Below are positions 37,213 to 52,521 of a DNA stretch of 52,521 nt, piece after piece. Position 1 is the first letter of the stretch; the number at the start of each line of letters is the position of its first letter. The stretch comes from Candidatus Sysuiplasma acidicola (lineage in GTDB: Archaea; Thermoplasmatota; Thermoplasmata; Sysuiplasmatales; Sysuiplasmataceae), in contig JAHEAA010000014.1 of NCBI GenBank assembly GCA_019721035.1, forward strand, positions 1-52,521, given 5' to 3'. The position numbers and the translations under genes were made by a program. The notes below the pieces were generated by a model. The model saw nothing but the letters and a program-made list of their open reading frames with translations, was not told where the DNA came from and ran no database searches.

Positions 37213-38172
37213 TCATCTTCTCATGCGCGGATCGAGTATATCCCTGAGACCATCTCCAAGCAGATTCAGACCCAGTGAGTACATGAGTATCGCGAGGCCG
37301 GGGACAATGAATGTCCACGGATACTGAAGCGCCTGCGTAATGCCCACACTCTTGTATTGAAAATAGGTTGCCAGATTACCCCATTCTGGAAGATAAATGA
37401 AGTTTATGCCGATATTGATGTAATCGAGCGCAGCGAGCAGCAAAACCACGGATCCTACATCGAGAGACATCTGGACGAAAACCGGGTATACGGAATTGGG
37501 AATTATGTGCCGGAAGACCACCCTGAGAGTGCCTGCACCGGAGGCTTTTGCAGCCTCTATATATTTCAGCTCTCTGACAGAAAGCACCTGCCCCCTGACG
37601 AGTCTTGCGTATGTGGGCCACCAGATGATGATGAGTGACAATACCAGCAGTGTCATGACGCCGCCTGCCACATGCGCAAAGTCTTCGCGGAACACGACGA
37701 TCATCGCAATTGCCAGCACTATGAATGGTATGGAGAAAAAGATGTCCGTCACGCGCATCAGTATGTCGTCAACCACGCCGCCTTTGTATCCGGCGAATGC
37801 GCCTAAGAGTATTCCAACGGTGGCACCGGCCGAGACGACGGCGAGCGATATGGCAAGATCAACCCTGGCTGCCTTAATTATTGCCGGCAGCAGGTTCACG
37901 CCGAAGTATGTTGTGCCGAGAGGGTACCTCCATGTCTGGAACCATGGTATATAGTCGTTGAGCAGTTTCCGGTTGGATTCCAGCACGTAAGGGTTGCCCG
38001 AGGTCAGCACAGGTGAAAAAATTGCGAGGAAGACGAACAGCGAGGTTATGATGAGTCCTGCGAGAGCCAGAGGACTCTGCTTGAAATAATAAAATTGTCT
38101 TCTGAACTGCGCGATCCTTGGAAGTATGCTGCTCGGTTTAAAACGCTGTGCTTTACCAAAAGACGTGGTCAT
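37213..38172 (-). CDS. Oligopeptide ABC transporter permease, DppC/OppC type
   Basis: This 319-residue inner-membrane permease has an N-terminal cytosolic stretch and a first helix LAGLIITSLFVFLAIFSPVL. A normal-sized extracytoplasmic loop of about 50 residues, ending in the family motif YPLGTTYFGVNLL (usually HPLGTDxxGRDxLS), comes next, then five further helices. The EAA loop contacting the ATPase is YIEAAKASGAGTLRVVFRHI. The C-terminal GDGLRDILDPRMRR is typical of DppC. It is the last gene of the binding protein, DppD, DppF, DppB, DppC set, 12 nt after dppB. It contrasts with the second-locus permease at 50560, whose loop is expanded. The exact peptide substrate is unknown. Confidence 0.93.
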   Translation of the reverse strand: MTTSFGKAQRFKPSSILPRIAQFRRQFYYFKQSPLALAGLIITSLFVFLAIFSPVLTSGNPYVLESNRKLLNDYIPWFQTWRYPLGTTYFGVNLLPAIIKAARVDLAISLAVVSAGATVGILLGAFAGYKGGVVDDILMRVTDIFFSIPFIVLAIAMIVVFREDFAHVAGGVMTLLVLSLIIIWWPTYARLVRGQVLSVRELKYIEAAKASGAGTLRVVFRHIIPNSVYPVFVQMSLDVGSVVLLLAALDYINIGINFIYLPEWGNLATYFQYKSVGITQALQYPWTFIVPGLAILMYSLGLNLLGDGLRDILDPRMRR

Positions 38173-39467: not shown

Positions 39468-40727
39468 CTAATTTGCCTTCGATAGAACGGACTCGTCGAA
39501 ATGTTCCCCTGCGATAACGCTTGCCTTTTCGGCAGCATCAATAATTCTACTGTCCATTTTGTGTATGAGATGACAGGCAACCTGATGTCCTGTGTTGTTC
39601 CAGTCCCGGAGCTTCGGTTCCTCATCCCTGCATATCTGCTCAGCATAGGGGCATCTGGTTCTGAACCTGCATCCGCTGGGAGGCGACGCCGCGCTCGGCA
39701 CATCGCCGGAAAGGATTATTCTCTCCCTCCTAAGAAGAGGATCTGGTATAGGTATCGCGGAAATGAGAGCCTGAGTATACGGATGCAGAGGATGAACAAA
39801 CAGCTCCTCAGTTTCAGACACTTCGACGATCTTTCCCAAATACATGACCAGAACGCGGTTGCACATTGCCCTGATAACGCTCAGATGATGTGAGATGAAA
39901 AGATAGGACATATTGTTCTTCTGCTGAAGATTCCTCAGAAGATTGAGTATCTGTGCCTGAACTGAAACATCGAGAGCAGAAGTGGGTTCATCGAGCACTA
40001 TGAATCTTGGATCCAGTGCAAGTGCTCTTGCCACGCATATTCTCTGTCTCTGACCGCCGCTGAATTCATGCGGAAAGCGGTACAGATGCTCTTCATTCAA
40101 TCCAACGTCCTTAATCAGAGACAAAACACGTTCGTCGATTTCCTTTTTTGTCATCCTGCCATTACCTGAAACAGTGTTCGAATCCTTTTCCGGCAAAGAG
40201 TTATCTGAATTGCCGGTCTCGGTTATGCGCCTGTGAATACGCAACGGTTCGGAGAGAATCTCCTTTACAAGCATCCTTGGATCCAGCGATGCAAACGGAT
40301 CCTGAAAAACAATCTGCATTGTCTTTCTGATTTCTCTGAGACGCCTCCTCTTCGCTTTGAAAATCGAATACTGCTCTGCAATTTTGCGTATTCGTTCTAG
40401 TGTTTCTTCACTGTTCTTTGCATCCGCGCCTTCAGTTTCAAGAGAACTGTAGAGCGCATCTAATTCGGCCGAAACAGAGTCTGGCGGATCTATGAAAGCC
40501 TGGCCTGAGGTGGGTTCGAGAAGCCGCAGCAATGTTCTGCCTGTCGTTGTCTTGCCGCACCCGCTCTCACCAACCAAACCAACGGTCTCCCCCTGATATA
40601 TCTGGAAGGAGACGTCGTCAACCGCATGAACGTAACCAACGCTTCTCGACATCACGCCTGCTTTAATCGGAAAGTACTGTTTAAGATGCCTTATATCCAT
40701 GTAAAGGTTATTTTTAATTGTCAACAC
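39468..40727 (-). CDS. Oligopeptide ABC transporter ATPase, DppF/OppF type
   Basis: This 419-residue ATPase has Walker A GESGCGKTT (53-61), Q-loop FQDPFASLDP (141-150), signature FSGGQRQR (222-229, Phe instead of the usual Leu), Walker B RFIVLDEPTSALDVS and H-loop FISHHLS. The C-terminal oligo/dipeptide domain carries cysteines in GCRFRTRCPYAEQIC, which in this family can bind an iron-sulfur cluster. There are about 50 extra residues between Walker A and the Q-loop (ELDALYSS to KAKRRRL) and a short polar linker around 170-190. The start is GTG 40727, overlapping dppD by 14 nt; ATG 40700 is an alternative. Confidence 0.92.
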   Translation of the reverse strand: MLTIKNNLYMDIRHLKQYFPIKAGVMSRSVGYVHAVDDVSFQIYQGETVGLVGESGCGKTTTGRTLLRLLEPTSGQAFIDPPDSVSAELDALYSSLETEGADAKNSEETLERIRKIAEQYSIFKAKRRRLREIRKTMQIVFQDPFASLDPRMLVKEILSEPLRIHRRITETGNSDNSLPEKDSNTVSGNGRMTKKEIDERVLSLIKDVGLNEEHLYRFPHEFSGGQRQRICVARALALDPRFIVLDEPTSALDVSVQAQILNLLRNLQQKNNMSYLFISHHLSVIRAMCNRVLVMYLGKIVEVSETEELFVHPLHPYTQALISAIPIPDPLLRRERIILSGDVPSAASPPSGCRFRTRCPYAEQICRDEEPKLRDWNNTGHQVACHLIHKMDSRIIDAAEKASVIAGEHFDESVLSKAN

Positions 40728-42243
40728 CTCCGAAGAGGAAGCAGCTGACCGTGTGGCCCTTTGAAACTTCTACCGTAACAGGCACGGTCGTCTTGCATAC
40801 GTCCATGACATACGGACATCTGGGATGGAACCTGCATCCGGCTGGCGGCCGTAGCAGGTTTGGCACTGAGCCGGGAATGGTAGTAAGCTTCTTCCCTGGC
40901 ATATCCAGCCTTGGTATGGCTGAGAGCAGACCCTTTGTATACGGGTGCAGCGGGTTCTTGAAAATCTCAGTTACAGTTCCGGTTTCCGCCACGACTCCGG
41001 CATACATGACCGCCACGCGGTCACACACTTCAGATATCACACCAAGGTCGTGAGTTATAAGCATGACAGAGGCGTTTGTTGTCTTCTTGAGCTTCTTCAT
41101 CAGATCCAGTATTTGTGCCTGAATCGTCACATCCAGAGCGGTGGTGGGTTCATCGGCAATCAGAAGTGACGGATTGCACGAAAGAGCCATGGAAATCATG
41201 ACACGCTGCTGCATGCCGCCGCTCAGTTCATGTGGGTAGCTGCTTAGAACTTTGTGGGCATCCTGAATGCTGACCTGCTTGAGCAGTTCTTCAACCCAGC
41301 CGGAAGTTTCGGTGTTTATCGATCTGCTGCACTCCCTCCTTGCGATCAAATTCAGCTTACTGAGCGCGATCTTCCACCTGCATCGTCTCACCTCAATAGA
41401 AATTTTTTTGATAGCGCGCAGGTCGCTGCCTGCCAATATGGCATTCCTCTCACTCTTCAAAAGCGTGTCAAGTTGTTTTTCGAGCTGAAGGATACCCCTG
41501 GCAGCCTTTGAAAGCGAGCCTATTTTTGCCACACGTAATGCTTCCTTCAGCCTTTTGCTTCGCTTCTGGCCCCTTGATGTTATCACATCATAAACCTGAA
41601 TCTGCTGACGCTGATCCTTCACGTGATTGGATATTGTTAGCATGGCGGTCTTTCTGAAATCATCTCTGTTCGTTCCCGAGACATCAAAATCATCGATGAG
41701 TGACCTGATGCCGGATGCATAACCAGAGAGACTGGCCACTTCCTTGCGTAGAATGGAATCTATGATTTCAGACTTCCTGTGCATCAGTAGCGCTTCACCC
41801 ACCTGCCTTTCGACAGTCAGTACAGGGTTCAGAGCCGTTGTAGGTTCCTGGAAAATCATGGATATTTCCCTTCCTCTTATGCCCTGAAATATCCTTTCTG
41901 TAAGTTTTATAACTCTCTTGTTCCTCTTTATCCGAACTCTTTTCCCTTTCTTGTTCACATATTTGACTTCATAAGGAAGATAGCGTGTCAGATCTGCGCC
42001 CTTGTAAATTATTCGTCCGGAGACGATTCTGCCCGGAGGATCCTGAATCAGTTTCAAAACAGAAAAAGCCGTAACGCTCTTTCCGCATCCTGTTTCGCCG
42101 ACGATGCCAAGTGTTTCACCCTTTCTGACGTAAAGAGTGACCCCGTCAAGTGCCTTAACAATACCATCATAAACAAAAAAATATGTCTTCAGATCCTCAA
42201 CTCTGAGCAAAATGTCCGGATCCTGTTCAATGGTGGTGCTCAT
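40714..42243 (-). CDS. Oligopeptide ABC transporter ATPase, DppD/OppD type, with large insertion
   Basis: This 509-residue DppD-type ATPase is well over the usual 320-340. Walker A is GETGCGKS (49-56), Q-loop [10 protein letters not shown] (131-140), signature LSGGMQQR (340-347), Walker [15 protein letters not shown]-loop ITHDLG, and the C-terminal cysteine motif [15 protein letters not shown]. The spacing from Q-loop to signature is about 208 residues, where 60-70 is normal. The extra about 150 residues (roughly 155-312) are helical and basic ([32 protein letters not shown]). A second basic insert ([13 protein letters not shown]) precedes the Q-loop. All ATP-binding residues are kept, so the protein is likely active. 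A TATA-like box lies at 42276-42283. Confidence 0.92.
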
Positions 42244-42456: not shown

Positions 42457-45402
42457 TCACTTGGTTACCGGGAACAGTATCAGGAAGGTCAGCGATGCAG
42501 ATAGTGATGTGGACCATGCAAGCGATGATGGGGTGATCCACGATCTGTAGAACGTTATGCCTATCGGCTGGAATACTCCGACGAGCATATCCAGTTTAAC
42601 GGACAGCGAGTCTGACAGATAGTAATCGTGCGCCCTCTGGCTTGTGTTGAGCTCGCCTGCACCTGCTGCACTTGCGTTCCACATGGCGTTTATCATCTGC
42701 CACTGGTGTGGATTGGTGGTCGAATTGAATCCCGGCCCTGGCATCCAGCCGTCAGGGAATGAATATATTCCAAATGGCTGTACAAATGGTGCGGCGAAGT
42801 CCGTCGGGTCTGGATAATCAGCTATCCAGCCCAGGAAATACAGAGGCAAGGGATTCTGCGCAGCCGGGACTGCAGTCACGGAAAGCAGTGTCGCGAAGTT
42901 GATGTCCTGAAGGAACGGTTTGACTGCACCATTGGTCGCATTCTCGATGGCTGGTATCCAGTACGACTGGATCATTGAGTCCTGTATCGGACTGCCTGCG
43001 ATAGAGAATATTGGGAAGGTTATGGAGCCTGAAGCAGCACTCGAGTAAGGCGAATGACTCCAGTAGTACTTTGCAAGTGACATGTTGTAATAGGGAGCCA
43101 TCGAATCGTTGGAAATGTTGCTGGGATAATCTGCAAGTCCGACCGGAATGTAACCTGTCAGATTCGTTGCGACCGATATTCCACTATTCGTGTTCATAGA
43201 CATATACTGTGCCTGGTCGAATGCGTAAGTGAACGCCCTTCTCACACTCAGGTTACCGAAGAATGTGGACACCTGCCAGCCACCCGGAACATTCGCGGAA
43301 GTCGAATTTGCGCCTGTGGCGTTTTCATATATCAGGCTGGAGCTGGGGAATTTAACGGTCTGGGATGAAAGAGCGTTGAGCGCAGTAACGTTTATCTGAG
43401 TTACGAAGAACCATGTGAACAGTGCAAGCTCAGGTGATGTTATGGCATTGGCCTGTCCGGCGTGGACCATTTTCATCACCAGCGGGAATGCGCTTGGCGG
43501 AAATGCACCCTCGGCGAAATCTGCCGCACCGGTCTGGAATGCCTCCTGGGCAACGGATTCGGAGGTGTAATAGTAGATTGTTATGCTTGGCTGCATTGCC
43601 GATACAGGAGGATAATCCTGTGTCTGGGTGAAGTTCTGGTTAGGAACAAACCTGATCATCTGACCGGGAACTACCGCTTGAACAATATACGGACCGGTTC
43701 CCATCGTGCCGAACTGGAGCTTTGTGTTCCACGATACAGCGTTGCCGTACTGCTGGTAACTGTAAAATGCCGAGGAAGACGCCGCATTCGGCGAGAACGA
43801 ACCTATACCAGCTCCGCTCGAATTCGCCCATGAAGCATCCATGACAAAGGCTATGGGCTGCGTCAGGAGCTGCATGAAATAAACAGCAGAGCCGAATGAA
43901 GAATACTGACCAACTGAAAGGCCTGCGGCAGATGCCGCTGTCGCATTCTCAGGTGTCCCGGTTATCATGTATGCCGAGTTTGTTCCATTCTGCGGAGTTA
44001 CACCAAACAGCGACTGATTTGTTGTAGGAAGTATGTGGAAGGTTATGGAAGTCGAGTTATAGGTCATTGCGTGGTCAACCCAGAACGGACTTACATTGTA
44101 CGGACCGTAAATTGAGTCGCCGGGTATCAAAGCATGCGCCATTAACCATCCTGGTCTGCCGGGATCGTTGGCAAACAGCAGGCCACGGAGAACTGAGAAG
44201 TAGACATCATAGCCAGTGACAGGCTGACCATTTGCGAACTTAGCCGATGGATTCAGATTGAATGTGTAGTTAACATATGTGACACCATTAGAAGTGTTTG
44301 TGGCAATGAGCCCGTTTGCAACTGTTGGCACGGCGGTTGCCAAAACAGGCATGAAGGACGATGAAGTGCCTCCCGGGGCATACTGCACAAGGGGTTCATA
44401 GAGATTGTATATGGCTTCGTAGCTGACTGTGTCGTAGGCTATCGCAGGATCAAGCGATGCAAACCCGCCGGGTATCCATGTTGCATCAACAATGCCGCTG
44501 TGAGTTGATGGCGAACTGGAATGCCTCGGGGCGAATGCGCCTACTGCCGCTGTTTCCACAAAGGTCCAGCTTGAGGTCTGGGACGATTTGTTAGTAACAG
44601 CTGTCAGTGTCATCGCATATATTCCAGAAGACATCGAAGTCGCATTGAGATAGTTTACACCATTAGCTACATCTGTCGCATTAAAACTCGGTGAAACTGT
44701 CTTTCCAACTTTGAACGACATAGACTGTAGCGCCCAGCCGGACGTCAGCGGATAGCTGGAGAAACTTGAAGGCAGAAGGCTGGAGATATTGACATACCCG
44801 CCAACAGGGACCACGTTGGGGAAACCTGCTGAAAGATTCTGGCTATTCGCCGAACTCCCCATAACCTGTATAGCCACAGGGAACTGATTCGCTATTGCCG
44901 TCGAGGTTACACTCGGCGTAATAGATACAGGTACGAGACTCAAGCTGTTGTCATAAGCAACGTTGGAAGTCGTTATGACCCGATCAAAAACAAGGTAATT
45001 ACCCGGATTGGGATAAACATACTTAACAGTTAAGCCTGCAGATCCGGAGATTGTCTTTGTGACACCGTTACCAAAATTCCATGTCACCGAACTGACGGAA
45101 GATGGAGAAACACTCGAACCAGAATAAAATGTGATGCTGCTGCCCTGACTGCCTACGCTGTAACTTGCATAGGATGGCAACGTTCCAGACTTCACCTTCG
45201 CAGGTGGTTTCGAGATTGACAGATAAATGCCCAAACCAGCGACAATCAGGATGATTACGACCACTACCGCAACAATCATAGTTCTAGATTTTCCTCCGGT
45301 AGGCGGCGGAGGAGTTATTCCCTGTGAACCGACAGGAACTGAACTTCCGCTTGAAGGGGTGTTCGCCGATCCATTCAGTGCTGAAAATATCTTTACATTC
45401 AT
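42457..45402 (-). CDS. Membrane-anchored peptide-binding protein with PKD-like domain
   Basis: This 981-residue solute-binding protein of family SBP_bac_5 is much larger than usual (520-600). The order is: a short cytosolic N-terminus with PPPPTGGKS; one transmembrane anchor (MIVAVVVVIILIVAGLGIYL, about 45-65); a PKD-like beta domain (VTWNFGNGVTKTISG to YPNPGNYLVF, about 100-150); a further beta-rich Ser/Asn-rich region (about 150-300); then the SBP domain from about residue 305 (DATWIPGGFASLDPAIAYDT, NLYEPLVQY) to the C-terminus (PLYFLGWIADYPDPTDF near 860). No lipobox is seen; an N-terminal helix tethers it to the membrane. Many N-x-S/T sequons suggest glycosylation. A C-terminal hydrophobic stretch (SASLTFLILFPV) is weak. 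It leads the dpp locus and probably captures peptides outside the cell. Confidence 0.92.
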   Translation of the reverse strand: MNVKIFSALNGSANTPSSGSSVPVGSQGITPPPPTGGKSRTMIVAVVVVIILIVAGLGIYLSISKPPAKVKSGTLPSYASYSVGSQGSSITFYSGSSVSPSSVSSVTWNFGNGVTKTISGSAGLTVKYVYPNPGNYLVFDRVITTSNVAYDNSLSLVPVSITPSVTSTAIANQFPVAIQVMGSSANSQNLSAGFPNVVPVGGYVNISSLLPSSFSSYPLTSGWALQSMSFKVGKTVSPSFNATDVANGVNYLNATSMSSGIYAMTLTAVTNKSSQTSSWTFVETAAVGAFAPRHSSSPSTHSGIVDATWIPGGFASLDPAIAYDTVSYEAIYNLYEPLVQYAPGGTSSSFMPVLATAVPTVANGLIATNTSNGVTYVNYTFNLNPSAKFANGQPVTGYDVYFSVLRGLLFANDPGRPGWLMAHALIPGDSIYGPYNVSPFWVDHAMTYNSTSITFHILPTTNQSLFGVTPQNGTNSAYMITGTPENATAASAAGLSVGQYSSFGSAVYFMQLLTQPIAFVMDASWANSSGAGIGSFSPNAASSSAFYSYQQYGNAVSWNTKLQFGTMGTGPYIVQAVVPGQMIRFVPNQNFTQTQDYPPVSAMQPSITIYYYTSESVAQEAFQTGAADFAEGAFPPSAFPLVMKMVHAGQANAITSPELALFTWFFVTQINVTALNALSSQTVKFPSSSLIYENATGANSTSANVPGGWQVSTFFGNLSVRRAFTYAFDQAQYMSMNTNSGISVATNLTGYIPVGLADYPSNISNDSMAPYYNMSLAKYYWSHSPYSSAASGSITFPIFSIAGSPIQDSMIQSYWIPAIENATNGAVKPFLQDINFATLLSVTAVPAAQNPLPLYFLGWIADYPDPTDFAAPFVQPFGIYSFPDGWMPGPGFNSTTNPHQWQMINAMWNASAAGAGELNTSQRAHDYYLSDSLSVKLDMLVGVFQPIGITFYRSWITPSSLAWSTSLSASLTFLILFPVTK

Positions 45403-48307: not shown

Positions 48308-50563
48308 TCAATCATTAAACTTGTCTTTGCGCATCTTCAGGAGCTGCTCCGGATTGAAATGACAGAGGTACCAGTGGGAGCCGGCCTCCTGCCTGGGCGG
48401 CGGAATTGCATTACACATATCCTCTCTGTAAGGGCAGCGGCGATAGAACCTGCATCCCTTCGGAACGTTAACGGGACTGCCAATCTCCCCTTCAATTTCG
48501 AGTTTGCCCGGATTCCAGTTGGGAGCCGGTATCGGCACTGCCTGGAGGAGCGCTATTGTGTAAGGATGCAGAGGATTCCGGATCACTTCCTCCGTCTCAC
48601 CCACTTCAACCGCGACGCCGAGATACATAACGAGAATCCTGTCTGCGAGATAACGTGCCGACGCAATGTCGTGCGTTATGTAGATTATGGTGATGCCGAA
48701 TTCACTTCTCAGGCGCAGCAGCAGATTCATGAAGCCTGCGCGAAGAGAAACATCCAGCATGGATATTGGCTCGTCGGCAATGAGCATTTCCGGCCTCAAT
48801 ACCAGCGCCCTTGCAGCAGCCACCCTTTGTCGCTCACCCCCGCTGAGTTCATGCGGAAACCTTTCAAGATAATTCTCAGGCGGTGTCAGATTCACCGTAT
48901 AAAGTGCCTCGTTTACCAGACTCACAATCTTGTTTGGATTCCTGCTTAGCTTGTGCGCAATAACAGGCTCCTGAACAATGTCAAATATGGTCATCTTGGG
49001 GTCAAGAGAGTCATACGGATCCTGGAATATCATCTGTGTCTGCCTCCTGAAGATATCGTACATTCTGTCGCTCTCTCTCAGCGAACTCAGATCGATAGGT
49101 GGCAGATTTTCAATTTCCGGCGAACCGTTGTTGGGGGTGCCGGTGTATTCAGACGTTGTGTCTTTATCAGAGAACGTGTTCGTAACCGGACCGGGAAGAT
49201 ACATCAGCTTTCCGCTAGTGGGCTTCAGTAAACCCAGCGCCGTTTTACCAAGGGTTGTTTTACCGCTTCCGCTTTCGCCGACGATGGCAAATATCTCATT
49301 TCGCCATATATCTACAGAGATGTGGTCAACAGCCCTTACCAGCCTTCCTTCAGTGGACCTGCTGAACACTGATCCAAAAAGTGTTCCTCTGATATCAAAA
49401 TACTTTGAAAGTTCTTCAGCTTTGACAACATCAGATGTATGTTCCGGCTTAAAAGAGTGAAATGATCCAGCCAGACCGGCAGTGGAAATATTTGATTTAA
49501 GTTTTCCTGAAACGAACTCGTTTGCAAAATGACACAGGCTGAGATGATCTTCTGAAATTTTTACGAGCGGAGGTTCCTGCCGGCTGCAAATATCCTGGGC
49601 GTAAAGGCACCTGGGTGCAAATCTGCATCCTGCAGGCGGGGACATCGGATCTGGTGGTGAGCCGGGTATACCGATTATTGGCTCCCTTGCTTTAGCAAGC
49701 GATGGATAGCTGTCCAGCAGGGATCGCGTGTATGGATTGCCCGGCTTCAGGTAAATTTCGTCCAGACTGCCAATTTCCATAATCCTTCCCGCGTACATCA
49801 CCGCGATTCTGTCTGCGAGCTGGGCTATCACGCCGATGTCGTGGGAAATCACCATCATTGACTCGATCTCCGACTTCCTCAATTCCTTGAGTTCGGAAAT
49901 AATTCTGGCCTGTGTAATGACGTCGAGGCCCGTGGTTGGCTCATCGGCAATGACAAGCTTCGGCTTCAGCGCCAAAGCCATGGCGATTACCGCCCTCTGT
50001 TTCATTCCGCCGCTCAGTTCGTGTGGAAAGGAATCCAGAACGCCGGGATTCAGCCCTGCATGTATCACAGATTCCGTGACGCGCTTCGATATCTCCTCTT
50101 CAGAGTATGAGGTGTGGAATCTGAAAACCTCGGAAATCTGCTTGCGAATGGTATATGCAGGATTAAATGCGTTCATCGAGCCCTGAAATACTATCGAAAT
50201 ACCCTTCCACCTTATTCTGGATAATTTCTCGGTAAGCACTTTGCGCTGCCTTCTCTTCAGCTTGACGCTCGCCTTGCCGGAAAATTCTGGCGCAGTGACG
50301 GTTTCACCCATGAATTTGACCTCACCCGATATTAGCGCATTGTCCGGGAGCATCGAGATTATCGCGTTCGCAAGCGTCGACTTTCCGCTTCCACTCTCAC
50401 CGAGTATTCCAACCGTTTCGCCTTTTCTGATGTTCAGATGCACGCGGTCGAGAGCCATTACTGTACCTTCATCGGTTTCAAAATTCACCGAAAGGTTGTC
50501 TATACCGATGACAGCGTCGGTATCTGCGTTACTGTTAAACGTATGTTGAATCTGCATGGTCAT
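48308..50563 (-). CDS. Fused DppD-DppF oligopeptide ABC ATPase
   Basis: This 751-residue protein contains two complete nucleotide-binding domains. In NBD1 (about 1-340), Walker A is GESGSGKST, Q-loop FQGSMNAFNP, signature LSGGMKQR, Walker B LVIADEPTTGLDV, H-loop ISHDIG and the cysteine motif GCRFAPRCLYAQDIC. NBD2 (about 380-751) has GESGSGKTT, FQDPYDSLDPK, LSGGERQR, MLIADEPISMLDVS, ITHDIA and GCRFYRRCPYREDMC. The DppD-like half comes first. A 25-residue insert (TNTFSDKDTTSEYTG) lies after Walker A of NBD2. The fusion supplies both ATPases of a peptide importer as one chain. It overlaps the permease gene by 4 nt. DppB and a binding protein for this locus are probably to the right of the window. 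Confidence 0.93.
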   Translation of the reverse strand: MTMQIQHTFNSNADTDAVIGIDNLSVNFETDEGTVMALDRVHLNIRKGETVGILGESGSGKSTLANAIISMLPDNALISGEVKFMGETVTAPEFSGKASVKLKRRQRKVLTEKLSRIRWKGISIVFQGSMNAFNPAYTIRKQISEVFRFHTSYSEEEISKRVTESVIHAGLNPGVLDSFPHELSGGMKQRAVIAMALALKPKLVIADEPTTGLDVITQARIISELKELRKSEIESMMVISHDIGVIAQLADRIAVMYAGRIMEIGSLDEIYLKPGNPYTRSLLDSYPSLAKAREPIIGIPGSPPDPMSPPAGCRFAPRCLYAQDICSRQEPPLVKISEDHLSLCHFANEFVSGKLKSNISTAGLAGSFHSFKPEHTSDVVKAEELSKYFDIRGTLFGSVFSRSTEGRLVRAVDHISVDIWRNEIFAIVGESGSGKTTLGKTALGLLKPTSGKLMYLPGPVTNTFSDKDTTSEYTGTPNNGSPEIENLPPIDLSSLRESDRMYDIFRRQTQMIFQDPYDSLDPKMTIFDIVQEPVIAHKLSRNPNKIVSLVNEALYTVNLTPPENYLERFPHELSGGERQRVAAARALVLRPEMLIADEPISMLDVSLRAGFMNLLLRLRSEFGITIIYITHDIASARYLADRILVMYLGVAVEVGETEEVIRNPLHPYTIALLQAVPIPAPNWNPGKLEIEGEIGSPVNVPKGCRFYRRCPYREDMCNAIPPPRQEAGSHWYLCHFNPEQLLKMRKDKFND

Positions 50564-52521
50564 CTCCTCCTCAGCCTCGGATTGACAACCTCATCCAGAC
50601 CCCTGGAAACGAATACGAATGCGAATATGAAGGCGGTAAGCGCGATTGACGGCGGTAGAATCCACCAGGGTGCCCTTGCTGCGAGGAAGAAATTGGAAAG
50701 CGTCGCATTCAGCATTGCTCCCCACGTGGATATAGCAAGTGGAGCTACGCCAAGAAACTGTAGTGTTGAAACACCTGCGACTGCACCGCCGATTCCGACG
50801 GCCGTAAAATATGCAAGCAAGGGAGTCATATTGGAGAGGAAGTGCCTGCGGAGTATCTGCATACTTCCGGCTCCTGAAACTTTTGCGGCCTCAATGAAAG
50901 CATGTGTCCTGATGGAACGCACCACTCCAATAAGCGTAAAGGTGGTAAACGGCCAGCCCACTAGAGTTAACACTAATATGATATTGAAAAGCGACGGCCC
51001 AAGCACGGCTGACATCACAATCAGCAAGGCGATGAACGGGATAAGGAAAATGACAAGCGATACAGTTTCCACAACAGAACCGATGAAACCGCCGACGTAG
51101 CCGACAATCATTGCGAAAACTACAGATATTAAAATTATGCCTAGCGCAACGAATATGCCAATTTCCCAGTCATAAACGAAGCTCGCAACCCATTGACTCC
51201 ACACGTCCTGGCCGTAGATGTTTGTTCCCATAAGGTAAACGTTGCCTGAAGGAGCATGCAGTGTCGGCGGAATCGGGTTGATATCAACGCCATTGGTAGA
51301 ATAAAGCACGAGATAATGATTGTTTGTGATAAAAGCAATTGTGTCTGCCCCTGAAAAGGAGTCCCTGACGAGTATGGGTGACGATGTTTGCAAAGATGAG
51401 GAGTACCTCGCATGCCACTGAAATGGCTGTTTTCCGCCCAGTGCTGAAACAGACGTGAGAAATCCACGGTCTGTAGACAATATAAATGCCGAGGAGTCCG
51501 GAGCATATATTATGTTTCCAAACATCGTGCCTTCTCCAGTCGGTGTTGACACGATTGAATTACCGTTCACCAGCTTGTTAACATTGCTAACCAGATACAG
51601 ACGTGATGGCGTGGACACAACCGAGTATGCTGGAAAACCGGAGCTTCCGTAAGAAGACGAATATCCTATAATCTGCTCAGGAGTCTGATAGACTTTTACC
51701 GCCGTTCCATTATTGAGCATTATGCCATAATAACCGGTGCCGTCAGAAACAAACGCCATACTGCCGGGAACAGTGCTTAACTGGTAGTCGTATGGAATAT
51801 GTATGGGCAGATTAACATTTATGGGGGATGAGAGATTCGACTGCCAGTTCAGTTTGCCCGAAAATGCTTTGATTGAATACATCGTATTTCCCTGAGCGAT
51901 GAGAACCTGTGTCTGAGAGGTGTGTCCGGGCTGATAATTTGCCCCGACAAATGCGGGCTGGGAAGGTGTCTGGTTGCCTGCAAGCCTGAAGTGCCAGAGC
52001 TGAGTCAGGGGACTTGTATAATACGATGCGAGGTAAACGCCTGTACTGTTGCGGTAAACAGCGAACAGCATTCCGGGGATAAAGCCTGAAGACAGCGATG
52101 TTGAACTGCGGAAAGGGACCCACGCCGGTAGTGAAGAGGCAGTTGACTGCGAGTCTGAGACGACTGGCATCAACAAAGATTCATTGATCATTACAGTCTC
52201 ATTGTCCGTCAGAAAAGGCTCGCCGCTACCCGGACCATGATTGCCTGACCATTGAATTTTGCTCAGAGAAATTGTGCCATTGTTCGTCGAGAGAAGCAGA
52301 AAATTATTGTAAGACAGCGAGGAGTAACCACTGCCGACAAATGTAGAATAACTGGAAAGAGGAAATACAGAGGGGGGAAATGCGATTGTGCCGGAGGAAA
52401 GCTGGAGCTTAAGCAACGGATAAATTGTTCCATTGGTCGTTGTCGGACTGCCTCCAAGACCCACCCCATAAACCTGGCCTGAAGGAGTGCCTGCATAAAC
52501 GAGATAACTTCCCGCTGCTCC
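50560..52521 (-). CDS. DppC-type permease with large beta-propeller-like extracytoplasmic domain (partial)
   Basis: The gene is open to the right edge, so its N-terminus is missing; the first in-frame GTG in the window (52464) is inside coding sequence. The last about 220 residues are a DppC-type permease. They begin with YLMGTNIYGQDVWSQW, matching the family motif HPLGTDxxGRDVLSR, then five helices, the EAA loop AFIEAAKVSGAGSMQILRRH and the C-terminal GLDEVVNPRLRRR. In ordinary DppC this motif follows TM1 by about 50 residues. Here at least about 430 residues precede it. They are Ser/Thr/Asn/Gly-rich, with repeated strands and PQQ/YWTD-like propeller blades (VLIAQGNTMYSIKAFSGKLN, AFILSTDRGFLTSVSALGGK, AFITNNHYLVLYSTNG). 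TM1 is expected beyond the edge. I infer a propeller inserted in the TM1-TM2 loop, on the cell exterior. Confidence 0.85.
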   Translation of the reverse strand, partial: GAAGSYLVYAGTPSGQVYGVGLGGSPTTTNGTIYPLLKLQLSSGTIAFPPSVFPLSSYSTFVGSGYSSLSYNNFLLLSTNNGTISLSKIQWSGNHGPGSGEPFLTDNETVMINESLLMPVVSDSQSTASSLPAWVPFRSSTSLSSGFIPGMLFAVYRNSTGVYLASYYTSPLTQLWHFRLAGNQTPSQPAFVGANYQPGHTSQTQVLIAQGNTMYSIKAFSGKLNWQSNLSSPINVNLPIHIPYDYQLSTVPGSMAFVSDGTGYYGIMLNNGTAVKVYQTPEQIIGYSSSYGSSGFPAYSVVSTPSRLYLVSNVNKLVNGNSIVSTPTGEGTMFGNIIYAPDSSAFILSTDRGFLTSVSALGGKQPFQWHARYSSSLQTSSPILVRDSFSGADTIAFITNNHYLVLYSTNGVDINPIPPTLHAPSGNVYLMGTNIYGQDVWSQWVASFVYDWEIGIFVALGIILISVVFAMIVGYVGGFIGSVVETVSLVIFLIPFIALLIVMSAVLGPSLFNIILVLTLVGWPFTTFTLIGVVRSIRTHAFIEAAKVSGAGSMQILRRHFLSNMTPLLAYFTAVGIGGAVAGVSTLQFLGVAPLAISTWGAMLNATLSNFFLAARAPWWILPPSIALTAFIFAFVFVSRGLDEVVNPRLRRR

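Follow-up and report, generated by a model that had tools for sequence, protein, structure and literature searches.

A DppC-type permease with a predicted extracytoplasmic beta-propeller is widespread among Thermoplasmata

Large folded inserts in the permease subunits of ABC importers have a precedent in the P2 loop of MalF in the E. coli MalFGK2-E system, a periplasmic domain that helps hold the binding protein. Among peptide importers, the scoop between TM1 and TM2 of E. coli DppB inserts into the cleft of the substrate-binding protein (SBP) DppA (PMC12136057), and residues 31-278 of pneumococcal AmiC form two extracellular domains that an AlphaFold-based proposal has clamping the peptide-binding protein (PMC11192437). 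Here we describe a DppC-type permease of Candidatus Sysuiplasma acidicola in which the corresponding loop holds a much larger domain, predicted to be a beta-propeller; a search of the open literature, with subscription papers lying outside its scope, returned no description of a propeller-bearing permease. The window, by which we mean the whole stretch of DNA analyzed (52,521 nucleotides), is a complete contig of this genome (G000:C14), and the features of the permease gene are as follows.

50560..52521, minus strand: dppC-type permease gene with a predicted extracytoplasmic beta-propeller insert; its 3' 653 codons lie within the window
51256..52521, minus strand: extracytoplasmic TM1-TM2 insert, a predicted PQQ/BamB-like beta-propeller plus the conserved linker GVDINPIPPTLHAPSGNVYL to the permease (AF2 models, Foldseek against PDB, weak match to Pfam PF13570)
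50560..51255, minus strand: TM2-TM6 permease domain, beginning at the GTNIYGQDVW motif (PF00528)
50866..50898, minus strand: EAA coupling loop FIEAAKVSGAG..., sequence FIEAAKVSGAGSMQILRRHFLSN, intact in the window sequence and kept in orthologs
G000:C18:87-392, minus strand: N-terminus and TM1, the first ~105 codons of the same gene, on contig C18

The open reading frame at 50560-52521 (minus strand) encodes 653 amino acids, with its 5' end open at the contig edge. A preliminary description of this DNA had recognized a DppC-type permease in its C-terminal part, and residues ~423-652 bear this out: BPD_transp_1 (PF00528) matches residues 467-652 at 57.8 bits (cut-off, 26.4) and the EAA loop is intact. 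The long polar stretch claimed to precede the GTxxxGxDV motif is likewise there, comprising at least 422 Ser/Thr/Asn-rich, polar and beta-rich residues without a stop ahead of GTNIYGQDVW. None of the named DppC/OppC equivalogs of NCBIfam is reached, the best being Opp4C at 108.4 bits against a threshold of 350, so the protein is a member of the class and not an equivalog of a named transporter. Orthologs in four other genomes (G007, G005, G006, and G001; frames of 757-771 aa) encode TM1, an insert and the permease without a break; full-length orthologs from Ca. Sysuiplasma superficiale and other Thermoplasmata have 754-771 aa and an insert of ~465 residues. In the four genomes there is no interruption, and the window protein shares 77 to 46% identity with them over its whole length, the closest being that of Ca. 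Sysuiplasma superficiale (G007; 77%). These full-length orthologs carry TM1 ahead of the insert, which places the insert in the TM1-TM2 loop, as had been proposed from the truncated gene. TM1 is clear by hydropathy (residues 39-57 of the full-length ortholog L034). The OppC_N model (PF12911) is missing from the window, where the contig ends first; it scores 13.1-17.8 bits in the close orthologs against a cut-off of 23.9 and exceeds the cut-off in six homologs of the same clade (L089, L090, L095, L097, L103, and L105).

The missing N-terminus and TM1, which the preliminary description had suggested seeking beyond the contig end, were located on contig C18 (87-392, minus strand), whose product is 73% identical to ortholog residues 10-111; C18 also has 26 bases, GGAGCAGCGGGAAGTTATCTCGTTTA, that are identical to the end of C14 and keep the frame. 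Its outermost ~90 bases (L060:1-90) stand where the continuation of dppC is expected and do not continue into C14; they are single-copy in the genome, contain a short open frame and are probably a chimeric contig end, or else a strain variant. The truncation at the contig end and these noncontinuing bases are what one would point to if two proteins had been joined through an assembly error or a missed stop. We assign that reading a vanishingly small probability, since the identical unbroken architecture recurs in many independent genomes, including the single-contig genomes G209, G081, G067, G038, and G054, and since unbroken frames with TM1 in the four orthologs above rule out both a frame fusion and an assembly join.

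A second peptide operon in the same window provides an internal comparison.

37213..38172, minus strand: ordinary DppC with a short loop (OppC_N at 22-62, BPD_transp_1 from 120)
42457..45402, minus strand: SBP of 981 aa with a PKD domain near its N-terminus and SBP_bac_5, in the same operon as the ordinary DppC

The contrast in loop length with this ordinary DppC, drawn in the preliminary description, thus holds, with OppC_N and BPD_transp_1 lying close together in the shorter protein. The ABC ATPase of this operon (40714-42243) has a feature of its own, an ABC_tran match that spans 337 residues (32-368) against a model of 137 positions, which indicates a large insertion within the nucleotide-binding domain.

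Structure prediction points to a propeller fold for the insert. An AlphaFold model of the full-length ortholog L034 with nine rows had a pLDDT of 54.5, too weak to place the propeller over the membrane, with the insert as its best-modelled part, and a model of the insert alone with ten rows reached a mean pLDDT of 70.7 and a pTM of 0.73; the latter is all-beta, with repeated antiparallel strands. Foldseek matched the insert to beta-propellers in the PDB at probability 1.00, the nearest matches of similar size being the PQQ-like propellers BamB and YxaL (TMt, 0.50-0.59), followed by WD40 propellers, and the modelled insert appears to have seven or eight blades. A search of the insert sequence profile against PDB sequences gave no match. 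The window protein itself has only weak Pfam propeller matches (PF13570, E = 4.5e-4; PQQ_2 [PF13360], 13.1 bits against a cut-off of 27.6), so of the propeller-family profile search that had been suggested, the part concerning this protein falls below cut-off, while its diverged homologs pass: 11 of the 30 large permeases scanned exceed the cut-off for PQQ_2 or Kelch. PQQ_2 does so in nine homologs of the same clade (L089, L090, L093, L096, L097, L101, L102, L104, and L105) and Kelch in L091, L093, and L094; L093 has Kelch followed by PQQ_2 and therefore probably carries two propellers. The linker between insert and permease is strongly conserved among orthologs. Together the structure prediction, the Foldseek matches and the above-cut-off homologs favor the propeller that had been claimed, and we regard the insert as a predicted PQQ/BamB-like beta-propeller.

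The insert lies outside the cell, judging from the basic N-terminus ahead of TM1 and from a composition (3% K+R, 32-35% S/T/N/Q) that resembles the secreted SBP and is unlike the cytosolic DppDF ATPase (11% K+R). We argue the location from composition because N-glycosylation sequons are not enriched in the window insert (8 versus 6.0 by shuffling); the SBP of the operon is strongly enriched (56 versus 25.7 by shuffling).

The partners of the permease are encoded alongside it.

48308..50563, minus strand: fused DppD-DppF ATPase, 751 aa, with two ABC_tran and two oligo_HPY domains; it overlaps the permease stop by 4 bases
C18 430-1413: dppB, upstream of the propeller dppC
L060:1544-6544 (G000:C18): SBP_bac_5 protein, 1667 aa, upstream of dppB

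The operon thus has the DppB, DppD/F (oligo_HPY) and SBP_bac_5 components that a Dpp/Opp-class importer requires, and the order giant SBP, DppB, propeller DppC, fused DppDF is recurrent, with the position of the SBP rearranged in some Thermoplasmatales-like genomes. On sequence grounds, the system is a type I Dpp/Opp-class ABC importer with a family-5 SBP in which the TM1-TM2 loop of DppC is replaced by a putative propeller and linker of ~465 residues. Peptide cargo is presumed from family membership, and sugars, too, can be substrates of archaeal Opp-class importers. The preliminary description had raised the option that the propeller replaces the binding protein; this is disfavored, as a family-5 SBP is kept and is enlarged, and 26 of 28 cases have an SBP within the operon or close to it. 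In most relatives the SBP of the same operon has 1240-1670 aa, and that of Ca. Sysuiplasma acidicola has hydrophobic segments at both ends, including a C-terminal TM anchor, an extension with Ig-like domains and a YVTN propeller at ~1000-1220 (TIGR02276, 45.8 bits versus 27.85), meaning that in this genome both halves of the importer bear propellers.

To compare SBP lengths we matched every DppC in 25 genomes to its closest SBP, a few pairings being imperfect at contig ends. SBPs next to a propeller DppC had a median length of 1330 aa (n = 26), whereas the median next to an ordinary DppC was 632 aa (n = 47; p = 3e-9 by Mann-Whitney test), a difference that, given the common lineage of the operon, is to be read as an association and not as repeated coevolution or many independent events. 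Some large SBPs also occur beside ordinary DppC (1003 aa beside 323 aa in this window; 1782 and 1282 aa in G032); the SBP at 42457..45402 shows that an ordinary DppC can have a fairly large partner.

What the propeller does can be approached by analogy with Dpp and Ami. It occupies a site equivalent to the DppB scoop and the AmiC domains, on the partner subunit, and occurs together with enlarged, tethered SBPs, which makes an extracellular docking platform for the SBP the most economical reading; we would give it about an even chance. The propeller would form a rigid platform beside the channel mouth and hold the long, C-terminally membrane-anchored SBP above the DppB/DppC entrance, so that it is not lost from cells most of which have no rigid wall. 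In other respects transport would run as in the standard DppABCDF cycle, in which the SBP captures peptides and ATP-driven opening and import ensue.

The variety of the inserts raises another reading. Adhesion modules of the beta-propeller, PKD and CARDB-like types commonly form part of archaeal surface proteins, and reports describe them from genomes of Thermoplasmatales and the ARMAN associated with these (PMC10354927, PMC5498576). The insert type differs by lineage (PQQ-like, Kelch or both), as would fit an interchangeable surface module. The propeller might thus be an anchoring or spacing module that binds surface glycoproteins, the S-layer, glycans or neighboring transporters, positioning the importer in the envelope and leaving the transport cycle untouched. 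We consider this unlikely, if still deserving of some weight: the insert lies within the TM1-TM2 loop, where the SBP docks in the homologous Ami and Dpp systems; the operons to which it is confined mostly encode an enlarged SBP; and a strongly conserved linker joins it to the permease.

The same lineage differences speak against one conserved ligand, and so against the propeller as an extra substrate-capture domain that would bind peptides or peptide-bearing polymers and pass them to the SBP or the channel. Propellers often bind ligands and peptides, related inserts match PQQ/BamB-like models, and the fusion holds the propeller next to the channel; but the operon already has a full SBP, and the nearest folds, BamB and YxaL, are to our knowledge not known as solute receptors of importers, so we hold capture to be rather improbable. 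The rigid joining of a large extracytoplasmic domain to both TM1 and TM2 is the sole observation favoring a transceptor-like propeller that would monitor load state or the condition of the envelope and control the importer. The operon is without a signalling partner and the sequence offers no pointer to this role, which we regard as very improbable. The docking platform remains our preferred account of the propeller.

DppB is also enlarged in some relatives (476-680 aa in L092, L093, L094, L096, L097, L100-L102, L107, and L108), apparently through a TM1-TM2 insert of ~300 residues that is weakly Ig-like in places. Separately, L098:1541-6694 is a single open frame of 1718 aa covering DppB and a propeller-type DppC; either the two permease subunits are fused there or the frame is an artefact. 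A more speculative view, which we hold doubtful, is that Thermoplasmata evolved a distinct importer class with an extracellular superstructure. The propeller on DppC, the Ig-like DppB insert of some lineages, and a giant tethered SBP with Ig-like or YVTN-propeller domains would jointly enclose a chamber above the channel, in which wall-less acidophiles would trap large or unusual substrates at their surface.

The propeller DppC is widespread in Thermoplasmata and not peculiar to the source genome: across 400 genomes of the class, more than 20 groups at family level have DppC-type frames of ~700-1100 aa, single-contig genomes included, and one more case (G435, 768 aa) lies outside the class in the same phylum. 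In one genome the frame of the propeller permease (G221:C4:554075-556316) is broken by a TAG in frame and by a shift to another frame; it may be a pseudogene or an assembly error. Two further long frames, of 609 aa (L012 in G002) and 565 aa (L046, actinobacterial), proved to be ordinary DppC with an out-of-frame upstream extension. Among plasmid records, 1148 had DppC-like matches, none covering 80% of the query, so these records yielded no example of the fusion. We built a maximum-likelihood tree from nothing but the permease domain of 36 large-insert and 34 ordinary DppC; all 36 lie on one side of a single branch and all 34 on the other (100/100 support, 100% of bootstraps). The ordinary side includes bacterial and paralogous DppC, and this single split suggests, in a tree that is unrooted and has long branches, that the propeller insert was gained once. 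A Clostridia OppC (L051:5155-6684) has a genuine TM1-TM2 loop of ~230 residues with no propeller signal, indicating that growth of this loop also happened in bacteria.

Although the family-5 ABC importers rank with the best-known transporters, an entire class of archaea, some of its groups with finished genomes, relies on a propeller-permease version in which the propeller exceeds the permease's own membrane part in size. The variant is common in its clade and structurally striking, and its mechanism is something we infer. Its carriers appear to be many acid-loving, mostly wall-less archaea, and the channel, by its sequence relationships, one used for peptide import. The propeller DppC offers a natural test of the role of the TM1-TM2 loop in SBP docking and bears on how importers function where a cell has neither wall nor outer membrane. 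It further illustrates that the annotation "ABC transporter permease" can conceal a major domain.

Compared with known systems, the importer is closest in plan to E. coli DppABCDF, with which it shares the DppB/DppC pair, the EAA loops, DppD/DppF with oligo_HPY, and a family-5 SBP, as well as, by analogy, a permease-subunit TM1-TM2 region that in E. coli touches the SBP (PMC12136057). The E. coli system has a short DppC loop and its scoop in DppB, whereas here a DppC insert of ~465 residues carries the predicted propeller, a single protein combines D and F, and the membrane-anchored SBP has about three times the length. In AmiC, too, a permease of a peptide importer has a large extracellular region, ECD1/ECD2, between its TM1 and TM2 (PMC11192437), but AmiC is an OppB-type subunit whose ~250 residues form two small domains with no propeller described, and the likeness is one of position. 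The MalF P2 loop differs in lying between TM3 and TM4, in its ~180 residues and other fold, and in belonging to a maltose transporter. OpuA and GlnPQ, which are SBP-TMD fusions, also join an extracellular domain covalently to the permease, but there the fused domain is the binding protein, whereas the present system keeps its SBP separate and has the putative propeller fused instead. BamB and YxaL resemble the insert most in fold, as the best Foldseek matches and through PQQ_2, the Pfam model of BamB, which passes in nine diverged homologs; at ~10-12% identity, they are free-standing secreted proteins or lipoproteins and not part of a transporter.
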